A stretch of DNA of 64,000 nucleotides from Paenibacillus albus (GTDB lineage Bacteria > Bacillota > Bacilli > Paenibacillales > Paenibacillaceae), in contig NZ_CP034437.1 of assembly GCF_003952225.1 (NCBI RefSeq), forward strand, positions 1,998,501 to 2,062,500. Direction: 5' to 3'. Shown here in pieces: positions 10,284 to 64,000 of this stretch. How positions within the stretch are numbered: position 1 is the stretch's first letter; every line of letters starts with the position of its first letter. The notes under the pieces are model-generated. The model was not told the DNA's origin. It did not search any database and saw only the letters and a program-made list of their open reading frames with translations. A program made the position numbers and the translations under genes.

Positions 10284-10287
10284 AGTA

Positions 10288-45169: not shown

Positions 45170-45264
45170 ACTCAGCATCGGCCGGAGGTTAGACTGCGCA
45201 GCTAACAAGTGGCTTACGCTGATTTAGTATACAATAGACCTATCCAATAGGAGGAACACCAACG

Positions 45265-46902: not shown

Positions 46903-46934
46903 GGTTGTAAGGTAGAGTTGAGTCGAGAGTTGAG

Positions 46935-46967
46935 GGCGGGGTATGACCCACAAGGTTATACCCCGTC
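46935..46967 (+). terminator. strong hairpin after binding-protein gene
   Basis: A 14-bp stem (46935-46948 with 46954-46967, G-U pairs included) with CACAA loop. No clear T tail follows, so it may act as a processing or stability hairpin and not a terminator. Confidence 0.6.
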
Positions 46968-47256
46968 ATGCTGTCTATGCGAAGTGGTATGACGCCCAGC
47001 TCGGCCTCGCCTCGCATTCGCTAACGGAGCGCAGAAGCGTTATTAAGGCCAATTCGGCAGTTTGGAAAATGTAACGGATCACAGGGACCTTATTGCTGCA
47101 ATTGAGCATATTTCGAGGCCAATTCTGGGCAATAGCTGCTCTGTGGTCCGTTAGAGCGACTGATCGGCGGGAAAACAGCGAATAAGTGCTGTACGTTCCG
47201 TTAGCCCTCAGGTATCCGTATTGATTTCATATCTAGGAAGGAAAGGTGTACATACC
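46968..47256. repeat. intergenic nested inverted-repeat element, copy 2 (four modules)
   Basis: The element itself spans about 47020-47206. Four modules like those at 20904-21092 are present: TAACGGA starts at 47022 and 47072, and TCCGTTA at 47147 and 47197. Again each neighbouring pair is exactly 50 bases apart and each has TTATT (or close) 18 bases after the T of TAACGGA. The inner pair folds into a long imperfect hairpin with CACAG/CTGTG and TATTGC/GCAATA matches. No gene is seen in the remainder of this gap. Confidence 0.85.
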
Positions 47257-47985
47257 ATGTTAAACGTAACGATCTGGAACGAATATTTGCACGAAATCAA
47301 CAATGCCAAGGTTGCGGAGATCTATCCGACAGGGATTCACGGGGCGCTTGCAGAAGCATTAGGAAGAGAAGACTTCAACGTGCAAACAGCGACACTTGAA
47401 CAGCCGGAGCATGGCTTAACGGAAGAAGTGCTGAACGCGACCGATGTGCTCATCTGGTGGGGACATCTCGCTCATGACCGGGTAGAGGATGCGATTGTCG
47501 AGAAGGTGTATCAGCGAGTTTTGGCTGGCATGGGACTGATCGTGCTGCACTCCGGTCATGCGTCGAAGATCTTCAGCAAGCTGCTCGGCACGCCGACAGG
47601 GCAGCTGAAGTGGCGCGAAGCAGACGATAAGGAGCGGATCTGGGTCGTAAACCCGGCGCATCCGATTGCCGCTGGCATTGGCGAGTATATCGAGCTGCCG
47701 AAGGAAGAGATGTACGGCGAGCACTTCCACATTCCGGCGCCGGATGAGCTTGTGATGATTTCGTGGTTCGAGGGCGGAGAAGTGTTCCGCAGCGGTGTGA
47801 CGTACAGCCGTGGCCGGGGCAAAATCTTCTACTTCCGTCCGGGTCACGAGACTTACCCGACCTACCATAACCCGCAGATTCAGCGCGTCATTGCCAGCGG
47901 AATCCGGTGGGCAGCGCCCAGCACGGCTGCTGCGCCTATATATGGGCATACAGCTCCGCTGGAGAAGATTCAGCCGAAAGCGTAA
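47257..47985 (+). CDS. ThuA-like trehalose-utilisation family protein
   Basis: A 242-residue protein of the ThuA/glutamine-amidotransferase-like fold. Family stretches are [35 protein letters not shown] and [21 protein letters not shown]. ThuA proteins work with Gfo/Idh/MocA partners (ThuB) on imported disaccharides, forming 3-keto sugars in known systems. The frame extends to 47221, but ATG 47257 matches the family start with GGAAAGG upstream. The next gene is a Gfo/Idh/MocA oxidoreductase, the expected partner, 60 bases downstream. Confidence 0.88.
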
Positions 47986-48045
47986 CCGGTAAGCAAGAGC
48001 TTGAGCTTCAGCATTGTGCGATAAAAGGGAGGAACGAAGAAGACG

Positions 48046-49095
48046 ATGAGCAAATATCGAATTGGCTTAATCGGACTTGGCGGCATGGCGCAAGCGCATA
48101 TCCGCTGGATGTCCGCATTCGCAGATCGCATGGAATTGGTTGCGGTTAGCGATGTGAATGAAGAAGCGCTGGCGCGAGTCGGCGAGCAGCAGGGCATTGC
48201 ACTTGAGAAGCGATATGCAAACTATGCGGAGCTTATTGCAGACCCGGACGTAGATGCGGTCGTATCTGTGACGCCGAACAATGTGCATGCGGACATCGTC
48301 GCGCATTGTCTTGCGGCACGCAAGCCGTTCATGGCGGAGAAGCCGTTCACTCGCATCTTCGAAGAAGCGGTGCCGCTGCTGGCGCAGTACGAGCAGCATC
48401 CCGTGCCGGCGATGATCGGCTTCACGTATCGCTTCACGCCGGCGTTCCGCTATGCGAGAGAGCTGATCCGCGAAGGAAAGCTGGGCCAGATTCGCAGCTT
48501 CTCAAGCCAATATCTGCAAGGCTGGGGAGCGCCGCAATATAACACGGGTTTCAACTGGCGCTTCGACAAGTCGGTCACAGGCACCGGGACGCTCGGCGAT
48601 CTCGGCTCGCATATGATCGATATGGCACGTTTCCTCTTCGGCGAGTTCGAGGAGCTGTCGGCGCAGCTGCATACGATTGTACCGCAGCGTCTGGATTCGC
48701 GCACCGGCGAGCTGGTGAACATCGAAGTCGATGACTTCGCGAGCTTCCAGGCGCGGATGAGCGGCGACGTGCACGGCGTCTTCCAAACGACGCGCAATGC
48801 GATCGGCTCCGGCAACCAGCATGAGATCTCGATCTACGGCGATACCGGCACACTTCATGCTTCGACGGAGGATCCGAATAAGATCGTATGGATTCGCGAG
48901 GAAGACGGCCAGCTCGCGCGTACGGTATTGAACGTGCCGAAGCGCTGCGAAGTGACGCAATATGAGCAGTTTCTGGCGATGCTCAGCGGCGGTCAGCCTG
49001 ACGGGCTTCCGGGTTTTATGGACGGCTATCGCAATCAAGAGGTGCTGGATGCGATCATTCGGGCGGCGGAATCGAAGACGGTCGTTCAGCTATAA
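48046..49095 (+). CDS. Gfo/Idh/MocA-family oxidoreductase, ThuB-like partner
   Basis: A 349-residue NAD(P)-dependent oxidoreductase. The Rossmann motif is IGLIGLGGMAQAH, and the EKP motif is intact (MAEKPFTR), unlike the paralogue at 17908. The C-terminal domain includes GTLGDLGSHMIDMARFL. With ThuA immediately upstream, an oxidised (3-keto) sugar is a reasonable product, as in trehalose/sucrose utilisation. A rho-independent terminator follows. GGGAGG lies upstream of the ATG. Confidence 0.9.
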   Translation: MSKYRIGLIGLGGMAQAHIRWMSAFADRMELVAVSDVNEEALARVGEQQGIALEKRYANYAELIADPDVDAVVSVTPNNVHADIVAHCLAARKPFMAEKPFTRIFEEAVPLLAQYEQHPVPAMIGFTYRFTPAFRYARELIREGKLGQIRSFSSQYLQGWGAPQYNTGFNWRFDKSVTGTGTLGDLGSHMIDMARFLFGEFEELSAQLHTIVPQRLDSRTGELVNIEVDDFASFQARMSGDVHGVFQTTRNAIGSGNQHEISIYGDTGTLHASTEDPNKIVWIREEDGQLARTVLNVPKRCEVTQYEQFLAMLSGGQPDGLPGFMDGYRNQEVLDAIIRAAESKTVVQL

Positions 49096-49107
49096 GCAAT
49101 GAAGAAG

Positions 49108-49141
49108 ACCGTCCGCGGCTTAATGCTGTGGGCGGTTTTTT
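49108..49141 (+). terminator. terminator after first importer/enzyme operon
   Basis: ACCGTCCGCGGC (49108-49119) pairs with GCTGTGGGCGGT (49125-49136), with several G-U pairs, followed by six T. Confidence 0.78.
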
Positions 49142-49286
49142 GCTGCCTACAGTGGCAGATCAGCCTACATTCATCTATTCCCACTCGCAAGTGAATCAGT
49201 TAGAATTGGAATAAGTTTTTTCGGTGAAGCGTTTTCGTGATTCATGGGTTCGAGCTTGGTCCATTGATTGATTCGAGGTGAATGCA

Positions 49287-50858
49287 GTGCTCAAAATGCT
49301 TATTGTTGATGATGAACGTTTCGAAAGAGAAGGCGTTAAATTTCTAATCGAGAAGTATAACTTGCCGCTTGCTACATATGAAGCGGATAGCGGTGAGAGC
49401 GCGCTCGCATTCATGAAGGAGCATCCGGTCGATATTTTATTTAGCGACATTCGCATGAATGGAATGGATGGCCTGCAGCTGGCGGCCCAGATTCGGGAGC
49501 TGGAAATCCCGGTGAAAGTGATCTTCATGAGCGCCTACGGCGAATTTGAATATGCGCAGCGCGCGATTGACCTGAAGGCAATCCGATATATTCTGAAGCC
49601 GGTGCAGGTCGATGAGTTTCTGAAGGTACTCTCGCAGGTCATGCAGCTGTGCAGCGAAGAGCGGCAAATGCAGGAGAAGCAGCAGTTGATGGAAGAAGCC
49701 TATCGCAACGATGCGCTTTATTCCAAGCAGAAGCTGCTATCGAATCTCGTGCTCGGCCATTCTGTAGGTGGAGGCGAGCTGCAAGCAATGCCGCTGTCCT
49801 CGCTAATCGGCATTCCGCGCGTACGGCTTGTTATGCTGGATTCGAGAACGAGATTCTTCGATCTGCTTGATCAGCATTTTGAACAGCAGCTCTCCGATGT
49901 GCTGAAGCGCAGCTTCGAGCTCGTTCATCTGAACGAGTTCCAGAGTTTGCTTATCCTCGAAGGGAATGATCTTTCGCGAGAGGAGCTTATCGTTTCCGGA
50001 GAACGGTTCATCCGTTGGTTCCACGACTTGTACGGCGGGGATCTTAGTGTCGTTATGGGCGGACTTGCCGAAGATAGCGAGCAGCTCGTCAACGAATATG
50101 CGGCCGTAGAATCCATGCTGGAATATAAATTTTATCACGATGAAGGCACCGTGCTGCTCGCCCATTCTGCAGCTCATGGCAAAGAAGAGATGCAGGCGGT
50201 GGTGGACGCCGCACTAACGGAGCTAAGGCAGCATATTACACAGTCTCGGTACGAGCTGGCGAAGCTGCGATTCGAGCAGCTGTTCAACGATTTGCGCAGC
50301 AGCGAGCAATTCTCCGTCATCTATGTCAAATTCATTTGCACCGAAATCATCAGGGCTATATTCGAGGCATCGGCGAAGAAGAACGCGGATTCGTTCAAGC
50401 AGCAGCTGGAACAAATTTACCGTACTTCCAAGCTGAGTGATCTGCGCAAGGTTGTTCTATCTATTCTGGAAGAGAAGGAATCTCCGTCCGCTGGCGCGGC
50501 GGGTTCCGGCGCTGGTTCCGGTTCGCAAGATTCATTGCGTAAAGTCATCGAGCACATCGTGGCAATCATAGAGAGCGAGTACAGCTCCGATCTCTCGCTC
50601 GAAGCGCTTGCTGAGCGCGTGTATCTCTCTCCGAGCTATTTGAGCCATCTGTTCAAGAAACAGCTTGGCGTCAGCTTCAATAAGTATCTGACCGTATACC
50701 GGATGGAGCGGACGAAGGAGCTTCTGCTCACGACCAATCGCAAAATCATCGATATCGGCCTTGAAGTTGGCTACAGCAACTTCCCCTATTTCAGCTCGCT
50801 TTTCAAAAACTATTACGGCAAGACGCCTTCGCAATTCCGGGAAGAGGCGGCTCGATGA
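49287..50858 (+). CDS. YesN-type response regulator (second cassette)
   Basis: A 523-residue response regulator. The receiver domain has MLIVDDERFEREG, ILFSDIRMNGMDG (phosphoacceptor Asp) and YILKPVQ. A middle region of about 280 residues is followed by a serine/glycine/alanine linker (SAGAAGSGAGSGSQ) and a C-terminal AraC DNA-binding domain (RVYLSPSYLSHLFKKQLG, IGLEVGYSNFPYFSSLFK). GTG 49287 is favoured: GAGGTGA ends about six bases before it. The last codons overlap the kinase start by four bases. It should activate the second importer cassette. Confidence 0.92.
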   Translation: MLKMLIVDDERFEREGVKFLIEKYNLPLATYEADSGESALAFMKEHPVDILFSDIRMNGMDGLQLAAQIRELEIPVKVIFMSAYGEFEYAQRAIDLKAIRYILKPVQVDEFLKVLSQVMQLCSEERQMQEKQQLMEEAYRNDALYSKQKLLSNLVLGHSVGGGELQAMPLSSLIGIPRVRLVMLDSRTRFFDLLDQHFEQQLSDVLKRSFELVHLNEFQSLLILEGNDLSREELIVSGERFIRWFHDLYGGDLSVVMGGLAEDSEQLVNEYAAVESMLEYKFYHDEGTVLLAHSAAHGKEEMQAVVDAALTELRQHITQSRYELAKLRFEQLFNDLRSSEQFSVIYVKFICTEIIRAIFEASAKKNADSFKQQLEQIYRTSKLSDLRKVVLSILEEKESPSAGAAGSGAGSGSQDSLRKVIEHIVAIIESEYSSDLSLEALAERVYLSPSYLSHLFKKQLGVSFNKYLTVYRMERTKELLLTTNRKIIDIGLEVGYSNFPYFSSLFKNYYGKTPSQFREEAAR

Positions 50859-52555
50859 AGAGGGCCATCACGGAGCTGTTCAACAGGCTGCGATTCAAGC
50901 ATAAGCTGTTTCTCTCCTATTTGATCGTCATCATCATCCCGATTATCGTACTCGGCGTATATGCGTACAAGCAGTCCGAGCAGATGCTGAAGATTCAAGG
51001 AATTGGGGGCATTGAGAAGAACGTCGATACGATATCAGGTGGAATTAACGGCTCCATTGAGCGATACAATCACTCGGTCCAGACGATTGTCTATAACAAA
51101 ACCTTTCAGAAGATCGTAACCAACGACTACCGCGATCTCGTCAATCTATCCTACGACTTGAAAGAATACCTGTCCCCCTACTTCACGATGATGACGAATC
51201 TGGACAAGGAAATTGATGAAATCAAGTTCTACACTCAGACCTATGTTCCAGAATATGGCGAATCCGTACAATTAGCAAGCCGCGTAAGCGAGGAGCAGTG
51301 GTACAAGGAAGCGCTGAAAGGTACAGGCAGCCAGTGGTTCTCGGATAACGGCATTATCGTCGTCAGCAAGTTTCCTCAGTTTTCGAATGACAAGGATACG
51401 AATATCGTCTATATGCGCATCAACGAGGCGAGTCTTTTCAACAACGTTGCGGCGCTTGCGAAGGACGATACCGTTATCATTACGGACAAGCAGGGACGGA
51501 TCATCTATTCCAATCAGCAAGCTTCTGCTGCTGCTGACAAGCCAGTCTTGAATACTGCGCAGCTTAGTGCGCTCAAAGAAGGCGTCATTGACTTCGGAGG
51601 GGCCAAGTCTTATCTCGTGAAGAAGCCCGTTGCGCTGACCGATTGGACCATCTATTGCATCGTCCCCGCCGCGCAGCTGACTCAGAATGCCGGTTCGATC
51701 ATCAATGCGACGTTGATTATTATCGCCTTGTGCATCCTCATTGTGCTGATTATCATCTGGATCTTCTCCAAAACGATGCTGCGGCGCGTGCTCTCGCTTA
51801 ATTCGCTCATGAAGCGGGTTGAGATCGGTGATCTCAGCATGCGAGTTCGCAGCGAGTCGAAGGATGAGATTGGCGAATTGACGAACCGCTTCGGCAGCAT
51901 GCTCATCCGGCTGAACGAGGTCATCGACGAGCTGTTCCGCAACAAGATCGTCCAGAAGGAAGCCGAGTTCAAAGCGCTGCAGTGGCAGATGAATCCGCAT
52001 TTTCTGTACAATACGCTGTCGTTCATTAACTGGAAGGCGCTGCGAAGCGACGCGCACGATATAAGCCATGTCGTTACGACGTTGTCGAAGTTCTACCGGA
52101 CGGGGCTAAATCGCGGCGACAATATCATCCCGGTGCAGGATGAACTGGAGCATGTGAGATGCTATATCGAGATTATCCAGACGATGAGGGAGAACAGCTT
52201 CGATGTGGTCTACGATATCGACGAAGCGGTGTTCGGCTATAAGACGATCAACTTTATTTTGCAGCCGCTAGCGGAAAACGCAATCATACACGGGATTAAC
52301 CGCAAGGAGAGCGGGCGCGGAGTGTTGAGGATAACTGCGGAGCTCTCCGGCGGCAAAGTCGTGTTCACCGTTGAGGATAACGGGAACGGAATGCCGCCGG
52401 AAGCAGCCAAGACATTGCTGGAAAGCCAATCTTCCGGCTACGGGCTGAAGAACGTCAAAGAGCGGCTCCAGCTGAAATTCGGTTCGGATTACAGCATCGT
52501 GGTGGAGAGCGAAGTGGATCAAGGGACGCGGATGAAGATTGCCATTCCTGCATGA
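50855..52555 (+). CDS. YesM-type sensor histidine kinase (second cassette)
   Basis: A 566-residue sensor kinase. Two membrane helices (residues about 18-38 and 285-305) flank an extracellular domain. HAMP is followed by the kinase core with QWQMNPHFLYNTLSFI (His in NPHF), LAENAIIHGIN, EDNGNGMPP and GYGLKNVKERL. Its ATGA start overlaps the response regulator's end, so the two are coupled. It probably senses the substrate taken up by the importer that follows. A terminator at 52712 separates it from that importer. Confidence 0.92.
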   Translation: MKRAITELFNRLRFKHKLFLSYLIVIIIPIIVLGVYAYKQSEQMLKIQGIGGIEKNVDTISGGINGSIERYNHSVQTIVYNKTFQKIVTNDYRDLVNLSYDLKEYLSPYFTMMTNLDKEIDEIKFYTQTYVPEYGESVQLASRVSEEQWYKEALKGTGSQWFSDNGIIVVSKFPQFSNDKDTNIVYMRINEASLFNNVAALAKDDTVIITDKQGRIIYSNQQASAAADKPVLNTAQLSALKEGVIDFGGAKSYLVKKPVALTDWTIYCIVPAAQLTQNAGSIINATLIIIALCILIVLIIIWIFSKTMLRRVLSLNSLMKRVEIGDLSMRVRSESKDEIGELTNRFGSMLIRLNEVIDELFRNKIVQKEAEFKALQWQMNPHFLYNTLSFINWKALRSDAHDISHVVTTLSKFYRTGLNRGDNIIPVQDELEHVRCYIEIIQTMRENSFDVVYDIDEAVFGYKTINFILQPLAENAIIHGINRKESGRGVLRITAELSGGKVVFTVEDNGNGMPPEAAKTLLESQSSGYGLKNVKERLQLKFGSDYSIVVESEVDQGTRMKIAIPA

Positions 52556-52876
52556 GGATTTGGTTGCAAAATCGAGGCAAAAGCGTCATATCAGTTCGTT
52601 AGCCGATTTAACAAGCCGAAATTGGCTTAATAAGCGTTATACGATTCGTTAACCCAAAGCGAAGAAGGCGGCTGGGTAGAGCGTGACAACTTCAAATGCT
52701 TCCTAATAAACAAGGCCTGTTCCATATACTGGGACAGGCCTTTATCTATTTCTTTTCTTTTTCAACAACATCGTAGAAAACTGAAAGCTTTCGCAAATAT
52801 TTGATAATTTCAGGCGCAAGCAGCTTTGTTATAGTTTTGTTAAAGGAATTCGCTAGCGAAGAAAGGAGTGCCGCGG
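52556..52876. repeat. half repeat element, copy 3 (two modules), plus terminator region
   Basis: TTCGTTA at 52595 and 52645 are two leftward copies of a TAACGAA variant of the module, again exactly 50 bases apart; the second carries CTTATT after it as in the full elements. There is no opposite half, so this looks like half an element. The rest of the gap has the terminator (52712-52743), an AT-rich promoter region for the importer and a perfect palindrome TTCGCTAGCGAA (52849-52860) beside its Shine-Dalgarno. Confidence 0.75.
52712..52743 (+). terminator. terminator after second two-component pair
   Basis: AAGGCCTGTTCC (52712-52723) pairs with GGGACAGGCCTT (52731-52742), one G-U pair, then a T-rich tail. 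Confidence 0.85.
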
Positions 52877-53860
52877 GTGAACGAGACAGCAATCGTTAGC
52901 CAGTCAAATGCCACAGTCCATGATGTAAAAAAGCTGGAACGGGCGAGAGTAAGAAAAGAGAAGCTCAAGAAGGTTAAACAATACCGCGTGCTGCTTCTGA
53001 TGATGGTGCCGGCGGTCATCTATTACATCGTGTTTCACTATTTGCCGATGTACGGTGTCCTGCTCGCCTTCAAAGATTTCAAGATACTCAAAGGGATCGT
53101 GGGCAGCCCTTGGGTAGGCGTAGATGTCTTTCAAAAAATCTTTCATGACGACTACTTCTACACCGTGCTCAAGAACACCATCATTATCAGCTTCTACAAG
53201 CTCATCTTCGGCTTCCCGGTGCCCATTATATTCGCACTGCTGCTGAGCGAAGTGATGAACGCCAAGTACAAGAAGCTGGTTCAGACTATCTCTTATCTGC
53301 CCCACTTCATCTCGTGGGTTGTGCTTGCCGGGATCTTCTTCACCTTCTTCTCGATGGAGGGACCGATGAACACGATCATCACCTACTTCGGCGGTGATCC
53401 GGTGCTGTTCCTGGCGGACCCGAGATATTTCCGGACGATTCTCGTCGTAACGGGCATTTTCCAAGGATTCGGCTGGGGCTCGATCATCTATTTCGCGGCG
53501 ATCTCAAGCATTGACCCGATGCTGTACGAAGCGGCGATCATCGATGGCGCGGGACGGTTCAAGCGGATGTTCTACATCTCCATTCCGATGCTCATCCCAA
53601 TCATTGCCATTATGCTGATCCTCTCGATGTCCGGCATTCTCGATGCAGGCTTCGATCAAATCTTCAACCTTTACAATGCGCAGGTGTACAGCGTCTCCGA
53701 CATTATCGACACCTATGTATACCGCAAAGGTATCGTCGAGATGAGCTATAGCTACGCCACGGCAGTCGGCCTGTTCAAGTCAGTTGTCGCTTTGATCCTC
53801 ATCTTTGTCGTCAACCGGATTGTGAAGCTGATCGGCGGTAAGGATCATGCGCTATGGTAG
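52877..53860 (+). CDS. sugar ABC importer permease, LplB-like (second cassette)
   Basis: A 327-residue permease with six helices and the LplB-type start (LPMYGVLLAFKDFKIL). The EAA loop is MLYEAAIIDGAGRFKRM. GTG 52877 is preferred over the GTG at 52868, since AAAGGAG ends eight bases before it. It works with the next permease and the binding protein at 54835, and like the first cassette lacks its own ATPase. The palindrome just before its Shine-Dalgarno may be an operator. Confidence 0.93.
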   Translation: MNETAIVSQSNATVHDVKKLERARVRKEKLKKVKQYRVLLLMMVPAVIYYIVFHYLPMYGVLLAFKDFKILKGIVGSPWVGVDVFQKIFHDDYFYTVLKNTIIISFYKLIFGFPVPIIFALLLSEVMNAKYKKLVQTISYLPHFISWVVLAGIFFTFFSMEGPMNTIITYFGGDPVLFLADPRYFRTILVVTGIFQGFGWGSIIYFAAISSIDPMLYEAAIIDGAGRFKRMFYISIPMLIPIIAIMLILSMSGILDAGFDQIFNLYNAQVYSVSDIIDTYVYRKGIVEMSYSYATAVGLFKSVVALILIFVVNRIVKLIGGKDHALW

Positions 53861-53886
53861 AACGAACAGGAGGTGCAAGTTAGAGG

Positions 53887-54783
53887 ATGATCAATGTAAA
53901 AAAGTCACCGGCTGACCGGGCGATCGATCTTATTATTTATCTGGTGCTTGGCATCATCATGGTAATCACGCTGTATCCGTTCTGGACGCAGGTGGTCATC
54001 TCGCTGGACGGAGGAGGCGTGGACGGTGCCGCATACGCTTCAGGGTTCGTGCTCTTCCCATCCAAAATCACCTTCGGAAGCTATAAGCTTGCCTTTCAGT
54101 TTAATGAGCTATGGACCGGTTACACCTATACGCTGCTGCGGACCGGGCTTGGTGTCACGTTCTCCATCCTGTTTACTTCCATGACGGCTTACCCGTTATC
54201 GAAGAAGGATTTGCCTTTGAATAAATATTTTACCGGCATGATTCTGTTCACGATGCTGTTCGCGGGAGGGACGATTCCATCCTACCTGCTGATCAAAGAG
54301 CTTCATATGATGAACACGATCTGGGCGCTTGTCGTGCCAGGCATGATTGGAGCATTCAACGTCCTCATCATGCGGAACTTCTTCCGCTCCATTCCGGAAG
54401 AGCTGGAGGAGTCGGCGCGCGTCGACGGAGCAGGCTATCTTCGCATCTTCACGCAGGTGGTGCTTCCGCTCTCGAAGCCGGTCATTGCCACGGTTGCCCT
54501 CTGGGTAGGCGTTGGCCATTGGAACGCATGGTTCGATTCTCTCATGTATATTACCGATCCAGGCAAGCAGGTGCTGCAGGTCGTCCTTCGTAAAATCATC
54601 ATTCAGAACAATACGTCCGACATCACGCTGCTTATTCAAAATCTGGGCAAGGATACCGAGTTCTCGGGACGTCAGCTGCAAGCGACGATCGTTATGTTCT
54701 CTATTATTCCGATGCTCGTTGTGTACCCGTTCATTCAGAAGTATTTTGTCAAAGGTGTTATGATTGGTGCTATTAAGGGATGA
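53887..54783 (+). CDS. sugar ABC importer permease, YtcP-like (second cassette)
   Basis: A 298-residue permease with six helices, the EAA loop ESARVDGAGYLRIF and the usual YtcP end (QKYFVKGVMIGAIKG). It forms the channel with the preceding permease, whose gene ends 26 bases upstream. An AGGAGG lies about 13 bases before the ATG. Confidence 0.93.
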   Translation: MINVKKSPADRAIDLIIYLVLGIIMVITLYPFWTQVVISLDGGGVDGAAYASGFVLFPSKITFGSYKLAFQFNELWTGYTYTLLRTGLGVTFSILFTSMTAYPLSKKDLPLNKYFTGMILFTMLFAGGTIPSYLLIKELHMMNTIWALVVPGMIGAFNVLIMRNFFRSIPEELEESARVDGAGYLRIFTQVVLPLSKPVIATVALWVGVGHWNAWFDSLMYITDPGKQVLQVVLRKIIIQNNTSDITLLIQNLGKDTEFSGRQLQATIVMFSIIPMLVVYPFIQKYFVKGVMIGAIKG

Positions 54784-54834
54784 AGATCCTCTCTAATAGA
54801 TATAGCATTGCACATTCATAGGGGAGTGATTGGT

Positions 54835-56499
54835 GTGAAAAGCAGCAACAAACGTTGGTTAGCAGGTGCTATGGCAAGCTCGCTTCTGCTTACGGTATTG
54901 GCGGGATGCGGAAGCTCGAATTCGAACGAAAATGCGGGATCGAACAATTCGGCAAAGTCGGATAACACGGCAAGCACGGATCAGACGAATGCAGCTTCTT
55001 CCAACAATACGGCAGCAGATAATAAACCGGCCGAGAAGAAACTGCTGAAGTTCTGGACGAGCAGCCCTGAAATCGCGAAGGCAGATGCGCCGGGCGTGAA
55101 AGCAATCCGCGATAAATTCGGAGTCGACGTTGAGTTCGTGCCAACTGGCGGCGAAGGCTTCAAAGAGAAAGTGAATCTGATGATCTCCTCCGGCGATATT
55201 CCGGACTGGATGAAGGAGCCATCATTTACGGATTATGATAAATATTTGCAGCAAGGCATTATTGCCGCAATTCCTCAGGAGCTGATCGAGCAGAATATGC
55301 CGAAGTATGTGGAGTGGCTGAAGCGCTTCCTGGGCGATGATCCGTTCAAATACGTAAGACGCGACGGCAAAATCTACGCGCTTCCGGTTATCTGGGATAT
55401 CGGTATCGACGGCCTTGATCTCGGATTCCGCGAGGATTGGATGAAGAAGGTTGGCGTGACAAAGACGCCTGAAACGATTGACGAGATGGAAGACCTGCTG
55501 ACGAAGTTCCGCAATGACGATCCGGACGGTAACGGCAAGAAGGATACATACGGCATGACGGCTTCCGGCGAGAACATCGAGAGCATGTTCAGCTCCGTGT
55601 TCGGCGCATTCGATTCATACCCGAACATCTTCCGCGAGAAAGACGGCAAGGTCGTTCGCGGCGAAATCGAGCCAGGCGCGAAGCAAGCGCTTGAAGTGCT
55701 GAACCGCTGGTATAAGAAGGGGATTATAGACCCTGAGTTCGTCGTCAACAAAGGCAACAACGTCGAAGATAAGGTGCTGACGGATAAAGTCGGCGCAATC
55801 GAGTACTACTGGTGGTCCTTCCTGCCGGGCACTGCGTTCCTTGGCGGCGAACAGTGGTATGACAAGCTGAAGGCGAAGCACCCGGACTTCAACTTTGCGA
55901 TTACTGGCGGAGTGAAGGGTCCAGACGGCAAGTACGGCATCTCGCAGTACAATCCGGCGTATGCATCCGGCGTCGTATTCGGCAAGCAGCTCGCGGACGA
56001 TCAAGACAAAATGGTCAAATACATGCAGGTGTTCGAGGCTTCCCAATTCGAGCCGGACATCTATGAGAAGCTGAACTTCGGCGAGAAAGATCAACAATGG
56101 AAGCTCGGCGACAAAGGCACAGTGGAATACCTGGGTGCTTTCACGGATGAGAAAGAGCGCCAGAAGCTTGGTCTTGGCAGCTACTCGATGAGCGGCTCGT
56201 TCAACGACTATGATTTCCAAACGTCCTATACCTCCGATGCAAGCCTGCGCAAGCTGGCGCAGGACACAAGAGCGAAGGGCACGCGCAACATCGACATTCT
56301 TGCTCCATTCAACAAGCCGGTCTATAACGAAACACAGGATAAGCTGAAGCAGTATACGACGCAGAGCTTCATCGACTTCATCACAGGACGCAAGTCTCTG
56401 AATGACTTCGACTCGTTCGTAGCAGAGTGGAAGAGCATGGGCGGCGACAAAGTAATGGAAGAAGCACAGCAAGTGTATGATACAAATTTGAAAAAATAA
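54835..56499 (+). CDS. extracellular sugar-binding lipoprotein (second cassette)
   Basis: A 554-residue substrate-binding protein with a signal peptide ending in a lipobox (TVLAGC), an Asn/Ser-rich linker and the large SBP fold. The region DDPDGNGKKDTYGM resembles a calcium-binding loop typical of LipO-type proteins. GTG 54835 is preferred (GGGGAG eight bases upstream). Downstream are a hairpin and two large glycan enzymes, so its ligand is probably an oligosaccharide fed to them. Confidence 0.92.
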   Translation: MKSSNKRWLAGAMASSLLLTVLAGCGSSNSNENAGSNNSAKSDNTASTDQTNAASSNNTAADNKPAEKKLLKFWTSSPEIAKADAPGVKAIRDKFGVDVEFVPTGGEGFKEKVNLMISSGDIPDWMKEPSFTDYDKYLQQGIIAAIPQELIEQNMPKYVEWLKRFLGDDPFKYVRRDGKIYALPVIWDIGIDGLDLGFREDWMKKVGVTKTPETIDEMEDLLTKFRNDDPDGNGKKDTYGMTASGENIESMFSSVFGAFDSYPNIFREKDGKVVRGEIEPGAKQALEVLNRWYKKGIIDPEFVVNKGNNVEDKVLTDKVGAIEYYWWSFLPGTAFLGGEQWYDKLKAKHPDFNFAITGGVKGPDGKYGISQYNPAYASGVVFGKQLADDQDKMVKYMQVFEASQFEPDIYEKLNFGEKDQQWKLGDKGTVEYLGAFTDEKERQKLGLGSYSMSGSFNDYDFQTSYTSDASLRKLAQDTRAKGTRNIDILAPFNKPVYNETQDKLKQYTTQSFIDFITGRKSLNDFDSFVAEWKSMGGDKVMEEAQQVYDTNLKK

Positions 56500-56512
56500 G
56501 ATGTTAGGCTGC

Positions 56513-56546
56513 GATGTCCTTTCCAATGCGAGTTGGGGAGGACATC
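56513..56546 (+). terminator. hairpin between binding-protein gene and glycan enzyme genes
   Basis: GATGTCCTTTCC (56513-56524) and GGGGAGGACATC (56535-56546) form a stem without a T tail. It could be a partial terminator or a stability element that keeps the binding protein expressed above the enzymes. Confidence 0.5.
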
Positions 56547-56597
56547 CGTGTTTACGAGCGTATATGAATCATTAAGAGGATGAGGGAGAGGGTCAAA

Positions 56598-58988
56598 ATG
56601 ACGATGACGATGGCACGGATCGAAGCGGGGAAGCTGGCTTTTCTAATTAGCAACAAAGGGGAACTTATCGGACTGCATAACACGGTCAACGGCGTTAGCT
56701 ATGAGCTGAATGGTCACCATAATCCACTGCTGCAAATTGTGAATGGCAGAGAGATTGAAGCTCCGACTTCGGCTGAGTACGATGAACACTACGGCGTACT
56801 AGCGCTTTATTATGAACAGTCAGGTACGAAGGTGGATGTCCGTATCGCTGTGAAACCGCATTACGTTACTTTGGAAGTGATTCTAATTGCTGCGGGGGAA
56901 GGCGAAGATGAGGTCGATGCTCTCATCTGGGGTCCATACGTGACGAAGCTTGCCGGTTCCATCGGCGAGTCTGTCGGCGTCGTTCATGACGGGGACTTCG
57001 TGGTCGGCATGCTGGCGCTGAATGCGAAGACGGTCGGCGGCTGGCCTGCCGAGCTGCCGCGTCAGGCATATGCGAACGAGACCTATGCGGATAGCAAATT
57101 CGAGTATGGCGACAGTACGGCTTGGCCGGTCGAGGGAGGCAGCTTGCTGCAAGCCTTTGCCCGCAACCGGACGAGAGGCGGACGCCGGCCGGTCTGGAAT
57201 CTGGACGATATTGAAGTGCAGCCTTTGCAGGGAGATGAGGCGCTGCTCGGCGGTACAGCCATTGCTCTCTTCGGCTGCGCTGTGAGCGAAGTGCTGGATA
57301 CCATTGAAGCGGTAGAGCTCGGCGAAGGATTGCCGCATCCGATGATTGAAGGGGAATGGGGCAAGAAGTCGAAGGCTGCGAACCAGTCGTATCTCATTAC
57401 GGACTTCTCGGAATCTACAATCGACGATGCCGTAGCGTATACGAAGAAGGCAGGGCTGAAGTATGTGTATCATCCGGACCCGTTCACCAAGTGGGGGCAT
57501 TTTGTATTGAAGCCGGGGCAGTTCCCTAGCGGTGATGAGAGCATGCGTGCCTGCGTGGAGCTGGCAGGAGATGAAGGCGTTTATGTCGGCGTTCATACAT
57601 TGACGAATTTCACGACGTTGAACGATCCGTACGTAACGCCGGTTCCGCATGAGGGCTTGCAGACAGTAGGTGTATCGCGGTTAGTTGAAGCTGCGGGGGC
57701 TATGGATGATGAGCTGGCGATTGATGATCCGCGGCCTTTTAACGAGAGTCTATTCCGGAAAAGCGCTAAGATTGGCACGGAGCTGATCGAGTATGAGTCA
57801 GTCTCGGAGCAGGAGCCATGGAAGCTGCTTGGCGTGAAGCGGGGCGTGAATGAAACAGCGGCAGCTGCGCATGAGGCTGGCACAGCGATCGGCCGTTTAT
57901 GGGATCACCCTTACGATGTGTTCTTCCCGAACATGGAATTGCAGGATAAGTTTACGGAACGCTTAACCGAGCTGTTCCAGCAGACAGGGCTACGGCAAAT
58001 TTCATTCGATGGGCTGGAAGGCTGCTTTGCAACCGGTCATGACGGCTATGGCGTGAACCGCTTCGTCAAGCAGTGCTATGAAGGCTGGGAGCATGAGGTT
58101 ATCAACGATGCGAGCATCGTCGTGCCGAATTACTTATGGCATATCTTCACTCGCTTCAATTGGGGCGAGCCTTGGGGCGTATCGACACGGGAAGGACAGC
58201 TGGAGTGGCGCCTCACGAATCAGCGTTACTTCGCACGGAACTTCATTCCGCCGATGCTCGGCTGGTTCCTCGTGCGCTCCGTTTCGGATCGTTTCGAGGC
58301 GACGACGCTCGATGAGATCGAATGGGTGCTGTCCAAAGCGGCGGGCTTTGACGCGGGCTTCGCGCTTGTTGCGGACATGGCGGTGCTTCGTCGCAACGGC
58401 AATGTCGAAGGGCTGCTAGCAGCGGTTCGCGAGTGGGAAACCGCGCGGCGTCTTGGCGTCTTCTCCGATGAGCAGCGGGAGCGGATGCGCGATCCGAAGA
58501 GCGACTGGCATTTGGAAGCGGCAGGCGAGGGAGGCTGGCTGCTCTATCCGGTGAGCATTTCGAAGCCGCTCACTTGCAGTCCGGAAGAGCTGCAGCCGGG
58601 ACAGCCTGGCGGCTCGGATTGGGCGTTCTTCAATAAGTTTGGCGAGCAGCCGCTTCGGTTCACGCTTCGCGTCTCGCCGTCCTACGGCAACGAGGATGCG
58701 GCCGTGAAACGGCCGACCTTCTATACGCAAGGCACTTATATGACGTTTGAGACAGAAATTGCGGCGAATCAATATTTGGTTTATGACGGCGGGTCTATGG
58801 GCCGGGTATATGACCAGAATTGGAATCTCATACGAGAAGTGAAGGCTAGCGCGGAGGCACCGATGCTGCGCGCGGGCGGACAGACGCTGTCGTTCAGCTG
58901 CAAATTCCAGGGCGATCCGAAGCCGGTCGTTACCGTTCAAGTGACAACTCGCGGCGAATGTGAAGTCGTCCGGAAGGAAGCAAACTAA
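56598..58988 (+). CDS. large glycan-enzyme-like protein of unknown family
   Basis: A 796-residue protein without signal peptide. The first about 240 residues look like a beta-sandwich, then a (beta/alpha)-barrel-like part runs from about residue 265. The barrel is interrupted near residues 385-440 by a small beta module (IGTELIEYESV, GVKRG, AAAAHEAGTAIG) like those in phage-tail and adhesin proteins. A likely catalytic acid is Asp471 in ISFDGLEGCFATGHDGYG. The C-terminal part is again beta-rich. I recall similar sequences only as uncharacterised proteins in glycan-use loci. ATG 56598 has GGGAGAGGG five bases upstream. Its TAA stop overlaps the ATG of the GH101-like gene (TAATG), so the two are coupled. 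A glycosidase role is inferred from context and fold pattern. Confidence 0.7.
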   Translation: MTMTMARIEAGKLAFLISNKGELIGLHNTVNGVSYELNGHHNPLLQIVNGREIEAPTSAEYDEHYGVLALYYEQSGTKVDVRIAVKPHYVTLEVILIAAGEGEDEVDALIWGPYVTKLAGSIGESVGVVHDGDFVVGMLALNAKTVGGWPAELPRQAYANETYADSKFEYGDSTAWPVEGGSLLQAFARNRTRGGRRPVWNLDDIEVQPLQGDEALLGGTAIALFGCAVSEVLDTIEAVELGEGLPHPMIEGEWGKKSKAANQSYLITDFSESTIDDAVAYTKKAGLKYVYHPDPFTKWGHFVLKPGQFPSGDESMRACVELAGDEGVYVGVHTLTNFTTLNDPYVTPVPHEGLQTVGVSRLVEAAGAMDDELAIDDPRPFNESLFRKSAKIGTELIEYESVSEQEPWKLLGVKRGVNETAAAAHEAGTAIGRLWDHPYDVFFPNMELQDKFTERLTELFQQTGLRQISFDGLEGCFATGHDGYGVNRFVKQCYEGWEHEVINDASIVVPNYLWHIFTRFNWGEPWGVSTREGQLEWRLTNQRYFARNFIPPMLGWFLVRSVSDRFEATTLDEIEWVLSKAAGFDAGFALVADMAVLRRNGNVEGLLAAVREWETARRLGVFSDEQRERMRDPKSDWHLEAAGEGGWLLYPVSISKPLTCSPEELQPGQPGGSDWAFFNKFGEQPLRFTLRVSPSYGNEDAAVKRPTFYTQGTYMTFETEIAANQYLVYDGGSMGRVYDQNWNLIREVKASAEAPMLRAGGQTLSFSCKFQGDPKPVVTVQVTTRGECEVVRKEAN

Positions 58989-61900
58989 TGGAGCGGCTGC
59001 TTGCATACAGCATTGTTCAAGGAGCCGGACAGTGGCTTGAAGAGAAGGAGGAGGCAAAGGAGGCAACTGCCTCTGCCTCCTCGGTGCTGTCGGCTGGCAG
59101 CTCGGATACGATAGCGCTGCTTTCGGGGGAAGGGCGGAAGCTCGCTGACGGCGAGCTTCGCTTCGCGATGACGCCGCTTAGCCTTGCGGGCAGAGTCGGT
59201 GCAATTATCCGATATGCTTCCGCGCAAAGCTGGATCTTCATCGGCTGCGATACCCCTATGGATCCTTTCGGCAGAAGCACCTGGATATGGGCGCTGCCTG
59301 ACGGGAAGCAGGGCGTGCTGTTCAAGTCCGACCCTCTCTATGAAGACCACCGCTACGAGCTTCTAATTCGTTATGCCGGGACCGTTCTTACAGTTATATT
59401 GAACGGTTATGAAGTTTATCATGGCACTATCCCGGAGCTATCAACGGTTCAATCGTCCGGGTCAATCGGATTCCGCACATGGAGCGCGGAGGACGGAAGC
59501 GGTGATGGGCATGCCCGAATAAGCGATGTGAACGAGAGAGAGATTGATGCGCAGAAGTATCTGCCGCAGCAGCAAGCAGAAGATGGCGCGGATACAGAAA
59601 GCTGGATATTATCATCTGAGCTGCTATCGGTAGAGGTGGATGCGGCATTCCCTCGTGTGCTTGGTTATCGCTGGCTTGCTTCCGGCGCAGTCTTGCATGG
59701 GCAGGAGGAGTGGCTGCAATATGTCGATTTGAACAACGAGCGGTATGAACCGCTTGTTACCGCCGAGCAACGGTCAGCGGCTTCGGCTGCATACTCGCTG
59801 TTATTTCCAGAGCTCATGGTGGAGATGGTTGCGGTAGTTACGATATCCGGCGCTTCGCTGGAGCTACAGATCACGGACATCCGCGAGCAAGGCGAGTTCC
59901 GCATTCGGACGATTGCGCTGCCGAATCATGGACTCGTCTCTGTTCGGGATACACAGGAAGGCGCTGCGGTTGCGCTCGCTGAGGGTATTAAGGGAGATAC
60001 ATTCGCCGCAGCCGCAGATCTGGAGCCAGAAGCCGCGCCTGCATATAAAGCAATTGCAATCATTCATACGGCAGAGCTGGCGGCAAGCGTCATTGGCAAT
60101 TCGCTAAACAACCGCAGACGACTGTGCGTGCAGACTGTGCAGCGAAGCGGGTATAAACAAACCGCGCTTTGGCACGGTTATTGGACGTACCGTGGACCGG
60201 ACATGCGAATTATCGGCGAGCCCTGGGCGAAGGTCGTTGTGACCGCGGATCGCAATGGCGACGGAATCGTCGATTGGCAGGACGGCGCGATAGCGGTGCG
60301 TGAAGCGCTGCCACCGATTCCGGGAGCCGAAACGCTGCGTGGAAGCTATGCGCATATTGCGATGAACTTCGGCAGCTTGGCACAGTTCCCTTTTCTACGG
60401 ATACTGGACAATGTGAAGAAGCTCCATCTGTATACCGATGGCTTCGGTCAGATGCTGGAGCTGAAGGGCTATCAAAGCGAGGGGCATGATAGCGGCCACC
60501 CTGATTATGGGAATAATTTCAATGAGCGGGCCGGCGGACTGCATGATCTGAATCTGCTTGCAGCACGTGCGCGAGACTACGGCGCGGTCATCGGTGTTCA
60601 TATTAATCACAGTGAGGCGTATCCGGAAGCACGGTCGTATTCTTCCTCCCTTGTGAAAACGACTCCCGGCTGGCGATGGATGGACCAGTCGTATTACATC
60701 GACCGGGAAGCGGATATTTTGTCAGGAAATTTCGATAAGCGTCTCGATGAGCTGAAGGAGCAGGCTCCTAACCTTGGCTTCATCTACGTCGATACGTATC
60801 GCGATGAGCACTGGGCGGCTTGGCGTCTGGTGGAGAAGCTTCGCAGTCTTGGCTATACGATCTGGACCGAGGAAGCCGACGCACTCGATTCGGATGCGGT
60901 TTGGACGCATGACTCCACCGACGACAGCGTCATCTCCCGGTTCATCCGCCATCAGGACAAGGATGCCTATGCCGAGGATGTGCTGCTGAAGGGCGGCTAT
61001 GAACGCTATGGCGATAATGGATTCATGGGTTGGCAAAATGAGCGCGATCTCACAGCCGTTGTGCGAGCTTTCTACACGAAGCAGCTGCCATACCGGTATT
61101 TGATGCATTTTGCGCTGATGAAATGGACGCCTTCGGTAGAGGCCGTTCTTGAGGGCGGCGTTATCTCGCGGATCGAGGACGGAGCTGCAGTCATTCGGAA
61201 AGATGGACGATTAATCGCGCGAGGCGATACGGTCTTCATCCCATGGGACCCAATTCACGAGTCGAAGATCTACCATTGGAACGCAGAGGGTGGCGAGACA
61301 AAGTGGCAGCTCCCGGTACATTGGTGCCAGAACGGGAACGTGAAGCTGTATCGACTTACTTCGCTCGGTCGCGTTCACACGCAGGAAGTCGAGGTAATCG
61401 CGGGCATGGTTACGTTAACTGTGGAGGCGAATACGCCATACGTGCTATACCAAGAGGAAGCGGCGCTTAATCCGAAGATCGTCTGGGGAGAGGGAAGTCC
61501 TGTGAAGGATATGGGCTTCGACAGCCATAGCTTCGAATGGTGGGCGAAGTCATCCTCTTCCGGCGACACACGGCATATCGTAATCGCGGCGACGAGCTAT
61601 GGCCAATCCTATCTGAGCATTTGCGGCAATAACGGAGCGGATGCGTTGGTAGAACAAGGCTTGGAGGGGCTAAATCCAGGCGTAACTTACTCTGCTTCCG
61701 TGTGGGTGCAAGTGTCGGATGGCCGCAGGGCCGCGCTTCGGATCAATGGGTGCGATGGGGAGACAAAAGTACACGAGATTGACCGAACGGCCGTCATCAA
61801 TTGGGACCCGGATTCGGATAAACGCGGCACGTACTACCAGCGTCTGCAGGTTCGTTTCCAAGCGCCTCAGCATGTTGATTCGCTGCCGCCGAAGCTCTCG

Positions 61901-62452
61901 CTTGTCGCTGATCAGGGCGATGCGGAGTCGTATGTTTATTTTGACGATGTACGGGTGTGCGTTATAGGTGCGAGCGATGAGGCAGCGGATCCGTATTATG
62001 AAGATTTCGAACAAGTGGATGCAGGCTGGGGACCGTTCGTCAGCGCGCAGCCGAAGGTGAACAAGACGCATCTGTCGCAGCGGCATGAAGGCTACACGGA
62101 CGATACGATTGAAGGGGAATGGTCGCTAAAGACGCTTGATCAGGTGACAGGCGAGCTGCTGCGCACACTGCCTTCAACAGTACGGCTGCTGCCGAACAGC
62201 ACCTATCGATTGTCGCTTCATTATAAAGCAGAGCATGAAGGGCAATATTCGATTCTTGTTCGCACGCAAGATGGTGGGGCAGAGCAGGACTTGACCACTG
62301 AGCCCTTGCACCAAGGGCAGCATGATTGGGAGGCGGAAGTGACGACTGGGGCATACTCGGATTACTATATTGCCATTATGAGGCATGATAGCAGCCCGGG
62401 CTCGCTGGTAATCGATAAGTTTGCGGCGAGCAGGATGGGCGAAATTCAGTAA
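58988..62452 (+). CDS. GH101-like endo-alpha-N-acetylgalactosaminidase, no signal peptide
   Basis: An 1154-residue enzyme. Residues about 1-190 are a LamG-like jelly roll, about 190-440 a beta domain, and about 440-740 the GH101 barrel. By comparison with the pneumococcal enzyme, Asp602 (in FIYVDTYRD) is the expected nucleophile and Glu628 (in YTIWTEEAD) the acid/base. Nearby GH101-type stretches are KGYQSEGHDSGHPDYG and FIRHQDKDAY. A domain with YRLTSLGR and ANTPYVLY follows, then two jelly-roll domains. GH101 enzymes release Gal-beta-1,3-GalNAc from O-glycoproteins and are normally secreted; here there is no signal peptide or anchor, so it is predicted to be cytoplasmic. It overlaps the upstream gene by one base. 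Confidence 0.85.
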   Translation: MERLLAYSIVQGAGQWLEEKEEAKEATASASSVLSAGSSDTIALLSGEGRKLADGELRFAMTPLSLAGRVGAIIRYASAQSWIFIGCDTPMDPFGRSTWIWALPDGKQGVLFKSDPLYEDHRYELLIRYAGTVLTVILNGYEVYHGTIPELSTVQSSGSIGFRTWSAEDGSGDGHARISDVNEREIDAQKYLPQQQAEDGADTESWILSSELLSVEVDAAFPRVLGYRWLASGAVLHGQEEWLQYVDLNNERYEPLVTAEQRSAASAAYSLLFPELMVEMVAVVTISGASLELQITDIREQGEFRIRTIALPNHGLVSVRDTQEGAAVALAEGIKGDTFAAAADLEPEAAPAYKAIAIIHTAELAASVIGNSLNNRRRLCVQTVQRSGYKQTALWHGYWTYRGPDMRIIGEPWAKVVVTADRNGDGIVDWQDGAIAVREALPPIPGAETLRGSYAHIAMNFGSLAQFPFLRILDNVKKLHLYTDGFGQMLELKGYQSEGHDSGHPDYGNNFNERAGGLHDLNLLAARARDYGAVIGVHINHSEAYPEARSYSSSLVKTTPGWRWMDQSYYIDREADILSGNFDKRLDELKEQAPNLGFIYVDTYRDEHWAAWRLVEKLRSLGYTIWTEEADALDSDAVWTHDSTDDSVISRFIRHQDKDAYAEDVLLKGGYERYGDNGFMGWQNERDLTAVVRAFYTKQLPYRYLMHFALMKWTPSVEAVLEGGVISRIEDGAAVIRKDGRLIARGDTVFIPWDPIHESKIYHWNAEGGETKWQLPVHWCQNGNVKLYRLTSLGRVHTQEVEVIAGMVTLTVEANTPYVLYQEEAALNPKIVWGEGSPVKDMGFDSHSFEWWAKSSSSGDTRHIVIAATSYGQSYLSICGNNGADALVEQGLEGLNPGVTYSASVWVQVSDGRRAALRINGCDGETKVHEIDRTAVINWDPDSDKRGTYYQRLQVRFQAPQHVDSLPPKLSLVADQGDAESYVYFDDVRVCVIGASDEAADPYYEDFEQVDAGWGPFVSAQPKVNKTHLSQRHEGYTDDTIEGEWSLKTLDQVTGELLRTLPSTVRLLPNSTYRLSLHYKAEHEGQYSILVRTQDGGAEQDLTTEPLHQGQHDWEAEVTTGAYSDYYIAIMRHDSSPGSLVIDKFAASRMGEIQ

Positions 62453-62595
62453 TAATATCCCTATAGATCGTAGTTCTGTCACGCGGATATGAAAGTCGTA
62501 CATGCTATAGTGAATGGATAGATTCTAATCGCTAGTGGCACGTAGGCAGAATCCGCAGATGCAGATACAAGGTACAACGAGAAAGGAGACTGGCG

Positions 62596-63300
62596 ATGCT
62601 GCTTGAGGTCATTGCACTAACAGAGGAAGATGCCATGACGGCTTCGCGCTTCGGCGCCGACCGGATTGAGCTTGTTTCCGTGATTGAAGAGGGCGGACTT
62701 ACCCCCGATGCCGATGTTATCCGTCAAGTAGCCGAGGTATGCGATATTCCAATGCACATTATGATTCGCCCGCACAGCCGGTCGTTTCATTATTCGGAGG
62801 CTGATCTCGCGGAGATGATCCGCTCGATCCAGGAGATTCGGGCGATGCAGCTGCCGAAGCTTGGCGCTTTCGTGCTTGGCGTACTTAACGCTGATCAGAC
62901 TGTTAATGAAGAACAGCTGAAGCAGCTGCTTGAAGCTGCTGGAGATGTGCCGGTAACCTTCCATCGCGCATTCGATGAAGTCCGCGACCAAGTGGAAGCG
63001 CTTGATACGCTGATGCATTACCCGCAGATACGCACGGTGCTCACTTCCGGCGGCTTGCCGAATGCGCTGCATGCGAGCAAACAGATTGCTCAGCTCGTCC
63101 GGCAGGTACAAGCGAAGGACTCGGCGCTTGAAATTCTGGCAGGCAGCGGCCTCACAGTAGAAGCGGTGTCCGCGTTCGTGGAGGAGACACAGGTACGCGC
63201 CGTTCATTTTGGCTCAGGCGTTCGCAAGAACGGTTCATCCACTGCACCTATTGATCCAGCTCGGCTTACGGACCTGCGTGCCATTCTGAATCAGCGATAA
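62596..63300 (+). CDS. cutC: CutC-family protein
   Basis: A 234-residue TIM-barrel protein of the CutC family. Typical stretches are LLEVIALTEEDAMTASRFGADRIELVS near the N-terminus, MIRPHSRSFHYSE, FHRAFDEV and VLTSGG. CutC was named for copper homeostasis, but its role is disputed and many copies lie beside sugar-use genes. AAAGGAG is seven bases before the ATG. It follows the GH101-like gene by 143 bases and is 20 bases before a sugar isomerase/epimerase, so here a role in handling a sugar derivative seems more likely than copper handling. Confidence 0.88.
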   Translation: MLLEVIALTEEDAMTASRFGADRIELVSVIEEGGLTPDADVIRQVAEVCDIPMHIMIRPHSRSFHYSEADLAEMIRSIQEIRAMQLPKLGAFVLGVLNADQTVNEEQLKQLLEAAGDVPVTFHRAFDEVRDQVEALDTLMHYPQIRTVLTSGGLPNALHASKQIAQLVRQVQAKDSALEILAGSGLTVEAVSAFVEETQVRAVHFGSGVRKNGSSTAPIDPARLTDLRAILNQR

Positions 63301-63320
63301 TTAACGAGGAGGCAGCTTAG

Positions 63321-64000
63321 ATGAAAATCGGATTAAGTACGTACAGCCTGCTCCCGGCGCTCAAGTCCGGAGAGATGACTGTGCTTGACGTTATTCAGTG
63401 GATCGCCGACAACGGCGGGGAACATATGGAGATGGTACCTTACGGCTACACGCTCGTTGATAACCTGGAGCTTGCAGACGCGGTAAGGGAGAAAGCGAAA
63501 GAAGTGGGCATCGCATTATCCAACTATTCGATGCCTGCGAACTTCGTGCAGCCTACGGAAGAGGAATTCGAGGCGGAGATGGCACGTGTGAAGTCGCACG
63601 TCGATCTCATTCACCGGATGGGCATGAAGCATTTGCGTCATGACGTGACGGCGTTCACGATTCCGAAGGAACAGATGACGATTGCCTGGTTCGAAGAAAG
63701 CTTGCCGCTTATCGTGCGGGGAAGCCGGATTATTGCCGATTACGCCGCTCAGTACGGCATTACGACAACGATCGAGAACCATGGCTTCAGCGTACAGGCG
63801 AGCGACCGTGTGCAGCGCGTGCTGCAAGCCGTTGACCGTCCGAACTTCAAGACGACGCTCGATGTCGGCAACTTCATGTGCGTAGACGAGAATCCGATCA
63901 TCGGCGTCATGAAGAATCTGCCGTATGCTTCTCTCGTTCATTTCAAGGACTTCTACTTCCGTCCGTACGATGCTCCGCCAGGAGGCGGCGATTGGTTCCG
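63321..64000 (+). CDS. sugar phosphate isomerase/epimerase (xylose isomerase-like TIM barrel), cut by window end
   Basis: The frame opens with ATG at 63321, eight bases after GAGGAGG, and stays open to the window's last base (226 codons seen). It starts KIGLSTYSLLPALKSGE and contains ITTTIENHGFSVQ and TTLDVGNFM, with the metal-binding Glu and His of this family, and VHFKDFYF. These enzymes isomerise or epimerise keto sugars. It is 20 bases after CutC and so in the same operon; the end is outside the window. Confidence 0.85.
   Translation, partial: MKIGLSTYSLLPALKSGEMTVLDVIQWIADNGGEHMEMVPYGYTLVDNLELADAVREKAKEVGIALSNYSMPANFVQPTEEEFEAEMARVKSHVDLIHRMGMKHLRHDVTAFTIPKEQMTIAWFEESLPLIVRGSRIIADYAAQYGITTTIENHGFSVQASDRVQRVLQAVDRPNFKTTLDVGNFMCVDENPIIGVMKNLPYASLVHFKDFYFRPYDAPPGGGDWF

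Follow-up and report, generated by a model that had tools for sequence, protein, structure and literature searches.

Two coupled genes in a 64,000-nt stretch of Paenibacillus albus DNA (hereafter the window; NZ_CP034437.1, positions 1,998,501 to 2,062,500 of the forward strand) constitute a real finding that goes beyond ordinary annotation. The downstream open reading frame (ORF), ORF B, represents a clade of short, predicted intracellular proteins of glycoside hydrolase (GH) family 101 with changed pocket residues, and the upstream one, ORF A, a widespread unnamed family with a predicted glycosidase fold. Both remain within known kinds, i.e., importer-coupled glycan catabolism and a GH36/GH101-like fold. 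The two genes and their relevant residues are the following (positions are relative to the window throughout):

56598..58988, + strand: ORF A, 796 residues, unnamed family with a predicted glycosidase fold (AF2 model, Foldseek and VIA matches, alignments)
58008-58010 (D471) and 58167-58169 (E524), + strand: candidate catalytic residues of ORF A, from conservation
58988..62452, + strand: ORF B, GH101-family protein of 1154 residues without signal peptide (PF12905, PDB 5a55, invariant triad)
60488-60490 (D501), 60791-60793 (D602), and 60869-60871 (E628), + strand: triad of ORF B, from alignment

Translation of ORF A may start at 56580 (802 residues) or at the ATG at 56598 (796 residues), upstream of which lies GGGAGAGG. 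At the junction with ORF B (GCAAACTAATGGAG), a single base is common to the TAA of the former and the ATG of the latter. These are not chance ORFs, since both are conserved across most of their lengths in genomes of the same family, with identities of 61-71% (ORF A) and 53-68% (ORF B).

A first-pass annotation of the sequence had assigned ORF B to GH101 with D602 and E628 in the expected places, and this assignment is borne out. ORF B matched the GH101 catalytic profile PF12905 with 272.6 bits (cut-off 25; E value of 4.8e-81), carries the additional Pfam domains Gal_mutarotas_3, Glyco_hyd_101C, GH101_dom-5, and GalBD_like, and aligned collinearly with the solved SpGH101 (5a55; 1.8e-99). D501, D602, and E628 correspond to the Asp-Asp-Glu catalytic triad named in an excerpt of PMC11861894 and are invariant in 14/14 aligned GH101s. 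By sequence, ORF B is thus a real GH101-family protein, which shares its domains, acid triad, and the published motifs DWQD, EGHD, and VHIN with SpGH101, EngBF, and the POGases, but differs from them in its length (about 1150 residues) and in having no signal-like N terminus. The latter was assessed with a crude N-terminal hydropathy score, for which we set the signal-like threshold at 1.8, on nine of the ten short GH101s described below (G008, with an uncertain start, was left out) and four long GH101s. ORF B scored 1.23 and ORF A 1.31, both below the 2.05 of the operon lipoprotein, whereas all four long GH101s reached at least 2.35. In agreement with the first-pass annotation, ORF B therefore gives no sign of export by this measure, and it seems to be a cytoplasmic protein, i.e., a GH101 working inside the cell. 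No report of an intracellular or cytoplasmic GH101 was found in the literature searched, which here and below comprised open-licence PMC papers only.

ORF B does not stand alone. A match to it at 1e-10 was present in 66 of 394 same-family genomes, and in 10 of these identity was at least 53% over nearly the whole length (in two pieces in G008); the next-best GH101 matches over such lengths did not exceed 42%. Genome counts for both proteins are lower bounds, because the wide searches considered no more than two candidates in any one genome. The ten short GH101s formed one clade (100/100), as did the seven of them that are paired with an ORF A homolog (100/100), with the caveat, issued by the tool itself, that the branches of the long GH101s are long and join at this point. 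Comparison of the ten short proteins with six long ones (L031 was included, but not its near copy L032) revealed consistent active-site changes. All ten carry WTHD[SA]T after the acid/base strand and lack the loop present in the six long GH101s; the published motif RFLxN has become RF[ILV]xH (conserved Asn now His) and the HW after the acid/base strand has become HD (conserved Trp now Asp). As regards this motif and the aromatic lid, ORF B itself reads RFIRH in place of RFLxN and HD in place of HW, and it retains W-x-W (GWRWMDQ). Given these clade-specific changes, family membership is firm and core-1 glycan specificity is not. The short GH101s are, as judged from their sequences, a conserved intracellular clade with changed pocket residues. 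Such a clade would show that the GH101 class also acts inside cells on imported substrates, and the altered residues could help to explain GH101 specificity, which is relevant to enzymes used for O-glycan release.

ORF A had been described as a protein of no nameable family, and so it remains by our searches: no Pfam family matched at an E value of 0.1, and NCBIfam and PDB sequence searches were equally without match. Specifically, no GH family emerged among 19 ORF A family members scanned by Pfam at an E value of 1, PF12905 did not match ORF A, and PF11308 (GH129) matched neither ORF A nor the 19 members. Profile comparison with hhalign returned a probability of 4% against two GH36 proteins and of 15% against GH101, the latter restricted to residues 31-334, before D471, and too weak to make ORF A a distant GH101 by sequence. 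Conversely, the AF2 model of ORF A (pLDDT of 93.3) consists of a beta-sandwich, a (beta/alpha)8 barrel, and a C-terminal beta domain, as in folds of the GH36/GH27/GH31/GH101 type, and Foldseek and VIA placed it nearest to GH36 and GH101. The best structural matches were GH36 alpha-galactosidases and FpGalactosaminidase structures, from which ORF A differs by its low identity (∼8-13%), by the lack of a Pfam GH36 match, and by an extra beta-rich insert in the barrel at about residues 345-440. In view of the predicted glycosidase fold and the failure of Pfam, NCBIfam, and PDB sequence searches to find any confident match, we rejected a known non-glycosidase. The family is unnamed with respect to Pfam, NCBIfam, and PDB and could already have a CAZy number; the literature searched on new GH-D-type families yielded nothing relevant to it.

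D471 and E524 are invariant in 19/19 and 50/50 aligned ORF A proteins (window included), and E474 is likewise invariant in the 19 close family members. The larger alignment combines the window with 49 of 75 loci, the other 26 being close relatives of the kept rows, partial, or frame-broken. In the model, D471 ends strand 467-471, which is barrel strand 4 by our own count, and E524 follows a bridge at 519-520. Enzymes with a GH36/GH27/GH31/GH101-type fold carry their nucleophilic Asp where barrel strand 4 ends, and their acid/base (an Asp in GH36) lies further along the barrel; by our strand count, ORF A would resemble them in the former, and its Glu acid/base candidate sets it apart from GH36. 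D504 is less likely to serve as the acid/base, because it is replaced in 2/50 proteins (L141 and L143) that keep E524. The model and the conservation pattern suggest for ORF A a glycosidase fold closest to those of GH36 and GH101, in which D471 and E524 are the candidate catalytic acids.

The 19 family members also yielded weak Pfam matches, i.e., 14 to Rcc01698_C (best, 4.8e-5), 9 to I-set, and 2 to AP_endonuc_2 (best, 3.6e-4). In the copies L112:5614-8082 and L077, the Rcc01698_C match falls at residues 426-468 and 784-833, respectively. Residues 384-434 of ORF A, within the barrel insert, weakly matched PHROG tail and virion families (1.2e-4 and 0.059). We took the PHROG and Rcc01698_C matches to reflect a small beta domain that these proteins share and that sits as an insert in the barrel, and a phage origin of ORF A was set aside; a structure search against a viral library gave TM-scores on the query of at most 0.25 among the 50 matches listed.

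ORF A homologs occur in 15 of the 98 genomes around the window's own and in 25 of the 394 same-family genomes (own included in both), as well as in 75 loci of a wider collection that span Paenibacillaceae, gut Clostridia, Bacteroidota, and one Actinobacteria metagenome-assembled genome. Their N termini are not signal-like in 30/30 Bacillota proteins and signal-like in 18/19 Bacteroidota proteins scored, the only one below threshold being L149, for which the score was taken at an internal start; L141 lay outside the sample. ORF A thus seems to reside inside the cell in Bacillota and probably in the periplasm in Bacteroidota. If it is a glycosidase, an unnamed family of soil and gut bacteria (Bacillota, Bacteroidota, and the one Actinobacteria genome) can now be assigned a fold and candidate catalytic residues, along with a transport context open to testing. 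Three kinds of relatives deserve mention. Paralogs of ∼760 residues beside or near ORF A homologs in Bacteroidota (L119:4593-6881, L121:12424-14703, L131:12724-15006, L112:16285-18561, and L147:12626-14887) keep D471 and have lost the NWGEPW glutamate. Two large proteins with signal-like N termini (L077:6343-9831 and L157:7498-11802) contain an ORF A-like module (26-31% identity) that retains D471 and the SWGE glutamate; both stand behind their own ABC importer, and L077 also has List_Bact repeats. Finally, L076 holds a split copy at about 9884-12305 (G009:C1:5702919-5705322) with frame breaks and one stop codon.

As to whether the pair is conserved as a unit in other genomes, it mostly is for the short GH101s and is not for the ORF A family at large. 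An ORF A homolog directly precedes 7/10 short GH101s (G000, G002, G004, G007, G008, G014, and G413). The remaining three (L153, L154, and L155) lie behind the same YesM and importer genes, with a familyless protein of 692-713 residues in place of ORF A; two of the three scanned proteins of this kind gave a faint GH36N match. Viewed from ORF A, a GH101 is nearby in only 4/28 Paenibacillaceae loci and in 0/47 other loci, several of which are short contigs, so that absence holds within that DNA. On the ORF A tree, the paired proteins require a single change, and the unpaired L066 and L068 fall among them, which makes loss or regrouping possible. Adjacency in 7/10 cases, the rarity of GH101 near ORF A, and the single change on the tree indicate that the pair is a real unit of one lineage, conserved but not obligatory. 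The usual neighbor of ORF A in Paenibacillaceae is the importer, not a GH101: 22/28 loci encode a solute-binding protein of at least 50% identity (rounded) upstream. Of the first-pass view of ORF A as a partner glycosidase, the glycosidase-like fold is thus upheld as a prediction, whereas the dedicated partnership with GH101 is not.

Proteins of the unannotated ∼690-713-residue family adjoin short GH101s lacking ORF A (L153:13380-15518, L154:12932-15067, and L155:13919-15994) and also an ORF A homolog (L067:11465-13597), with a faint GH36 N-terminal match in L154 and L067 only. A further neighbor family of ∼640 residues (three sequences, weak DUF6259 match) is weakly similar to the ∼711-residue proteins, a lead only; its model (pLDDT of 43.1) was not used, and no literature linking DUF6259 with a GH was found.

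The genes around the pair, whose coordinates, sizes, one-base overlap, and neighbors were correct in the first-pass annotation, including the importer upstream, are as follows:

49278..50858, + strand: YesN-type response regulator with AraC-type DNA-binding domain (Pfam Response_reg, HTH_18, HTH_AraC)
50855..52555, + strand: YesM-type sensor histidine kinase (Pfam His_kinase, HATPase_c, HAMP)
52868..53860, + strand: ABC importer permease 1 (Pfam BPD_transp_1, 9.4e-11; relatives near ORF A homologs)
53887..54783, + strand: ABC importer permease 2 (Pfam BPD_transp_1, 8.2e-16)
54808..56499, start possibly 54871, + strand: importer solute-binding lipoprotein (Pfam SBP_bac_8, 2.5e-9)
62596..63300, + strand: CutC-family protein (Pfam CutC, 1.7e-46)
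63321..64000, continuing to ∼64190 past the window, + strand: sugar isomerase/epimerase-type TIM barrel (Pfam AP_endonuc_2, 8.6e-28, in genome piece L158)
64227-65492, beyond the window, after the isomerase: GH29 alpha-fucosidase-like gene (Pfam Alpha_L_fucos, 9.5e-44, in genome piece L158)

Of the genes that lie between the kinase and CutC, none of those scanned with Pfam encodes an ATPase. Importers of this type commonly use a shared ATPase. Promoter and terminator scans of 49000-64000 did no better than shuffles (11 versus 11.4 and 6 versus 13.7, respectively), and Rfam gave no match in the window.

From the gene order, its conservation, the family of ORF B, the predicted fold of ORF A, and the lack of export signals by hydropathy, we infer activities, a substrate, and an order of steps. 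With fair confidence, we regard the operon as a regulated unit that takes up and disassembles an alpha-linked hetero-oligosaccharide or small glycoconjugate, probably a fucosylated one. Import of the intact glycan would fall to the lipoprotein and the two permeases, probably served by an ATPase that other importers also use. Once the glycan is in the cytoplasm, ORF B would cut an alpha-N-acetylhexosamine (HexNAc)-type linkage with retention, D602 acting as the nucleophile and E628 as the acid/base, as its family and conserved residues suggest. ORF A would be a second alpha-glycosidase, probably retaining, with D471 as the putative nucleophile and E524 as the putative acid/base; it may act on a part of the glycan met by many bacteria, in which case ORF B would be an addition that deals with a variant of this glycan. 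The remaining breakdown would be left to GH29, CutC, and the isomerase. Slightly short of an even chance is the broader proposal that ORF A belongs to an uncharacterized GH family within the GH36/GH101 superfamily that uses an Asp/Glu catalytic pair, cytoplasmic behind a dedicated importer in Bacillota and periplasmic in Bacteroidota, and that the adjoining GH101s are a cytoplasmic subfamily of altered specificity that cuts imported glycoconjugates.

The neighbors suggest a fucosylated, alpha-galactosyl, or alpha-HexNAc-bearing glycan, the source of which they do not fix. One explanation, which we deem rather unlikely, is a mucin-type O-glycan pathway in which the cell takes up core-1 glycopeptides or glyco-amino acids, galacto-N-biose is freed from them internally by GH101, and ORF A trims its decorations. 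The triad and motifs retained in ORF B are compatible with it, as are genes for a sulfatase, a GH29 protein, and asparaginase II that occur in sister loci (which also encode a GH116 protein) and the downstream GH29 protein, nearest to 4zrx, 3eyp, 3gza, and 5k9h and then to the alpha-1,3/4-fucosidases 3ues/3mo4. There is also a precedent, by analogy only: according to an excerpt of PMC6960285, Lactobacillus casei imports fucosyl-N-acetylglucosamine-asparagine as an intact glyco-amino acid that is then processed by an intracellular fucosidase and bond cleavage, albeit with a different transporter type and different enzymes. The pocket changes and the missing loop in 10/10 short GH101s, together with the occurrence of ORF A mostly without GH101, weigh against this pathway. 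Moreover, galacto-N-biose phosphorylase (GH112) and GH129 were each found in only 1/10 short-GH101 genomes, and neither in the window's genome (no PF11308 match); AgaS gave only sub-cut-off matches, in 8/10. The bifidobacterial galacto-N-biose route (excerpts of PMC7674204 and PMC4365749), which likewise couples O-glycan-type enzymes with an ABC importer, is therefore not present here as such, and it further differs in that here GH101 itself seems intracellular. The mucin-type O-glycan put forward earlier is thus not established as the substrate.

The same active-site changes would be expected if the short GH101s and the ORF A family were specialized for a fragment of a plant, fungal, or bacterial polysaccharide with alpha-galactose or N-acetylgalactosamine and fucose, an explanation that we find plausible yet hold tentatively. 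It accords with the presence of the ORF A family in soil and gut bacteria, where non-Paenibacillaceae loci contain SusC-type (17/47) and GH29 (9/47) matches and where GH29, GH95, GH97, GH36, GH116, GH2, and GH38-like proteins are encoded near ORF A homologs, and with the closest PDB relatives of the lipoprotein, i.e., 5gx8 (extracellular solute-binding protein family 1; 1.5e-24), AlgQ1 (2.1e-22), and 5g5y (2.4e-19), with AlgQ2 also near. However, the neighbors are highly variable, and no polysaccharide-specific enzyme among them points to a single substrate. It is improbable that ORF A is not a hydrolase at all but a transglycosylase, a lyase, or a sugar-binding former enzyme that retained the fold. 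Its lack of sequence similarity to known hydrolases and the loss of the acid/base candidate in the five aligned ∼760-residue paralogs would fit such a role, but D471, E474, and E524 are invariant in close relatives, and the distant secreted L077 and L157 proteins still keep D471 and the SWGE glutamate.

Immediately upstream of the operon, a second cluster (40058-49095) comprises permeases and a DUF3502 solute-binding protein together with a YesM-type kinase and a response-regulator-like ORF, followed by ThuA and a Gfo/Idh/MocA oxidoreductase. Further genes encode a GH127-type beta-L-arabinofuranosidase (22198-24162) and, ∼41 kb from the pair, a sulfatase (15002-16477; domain from residue 3) that is 64-66% identical to those that L060 and L062 encode near the pair.

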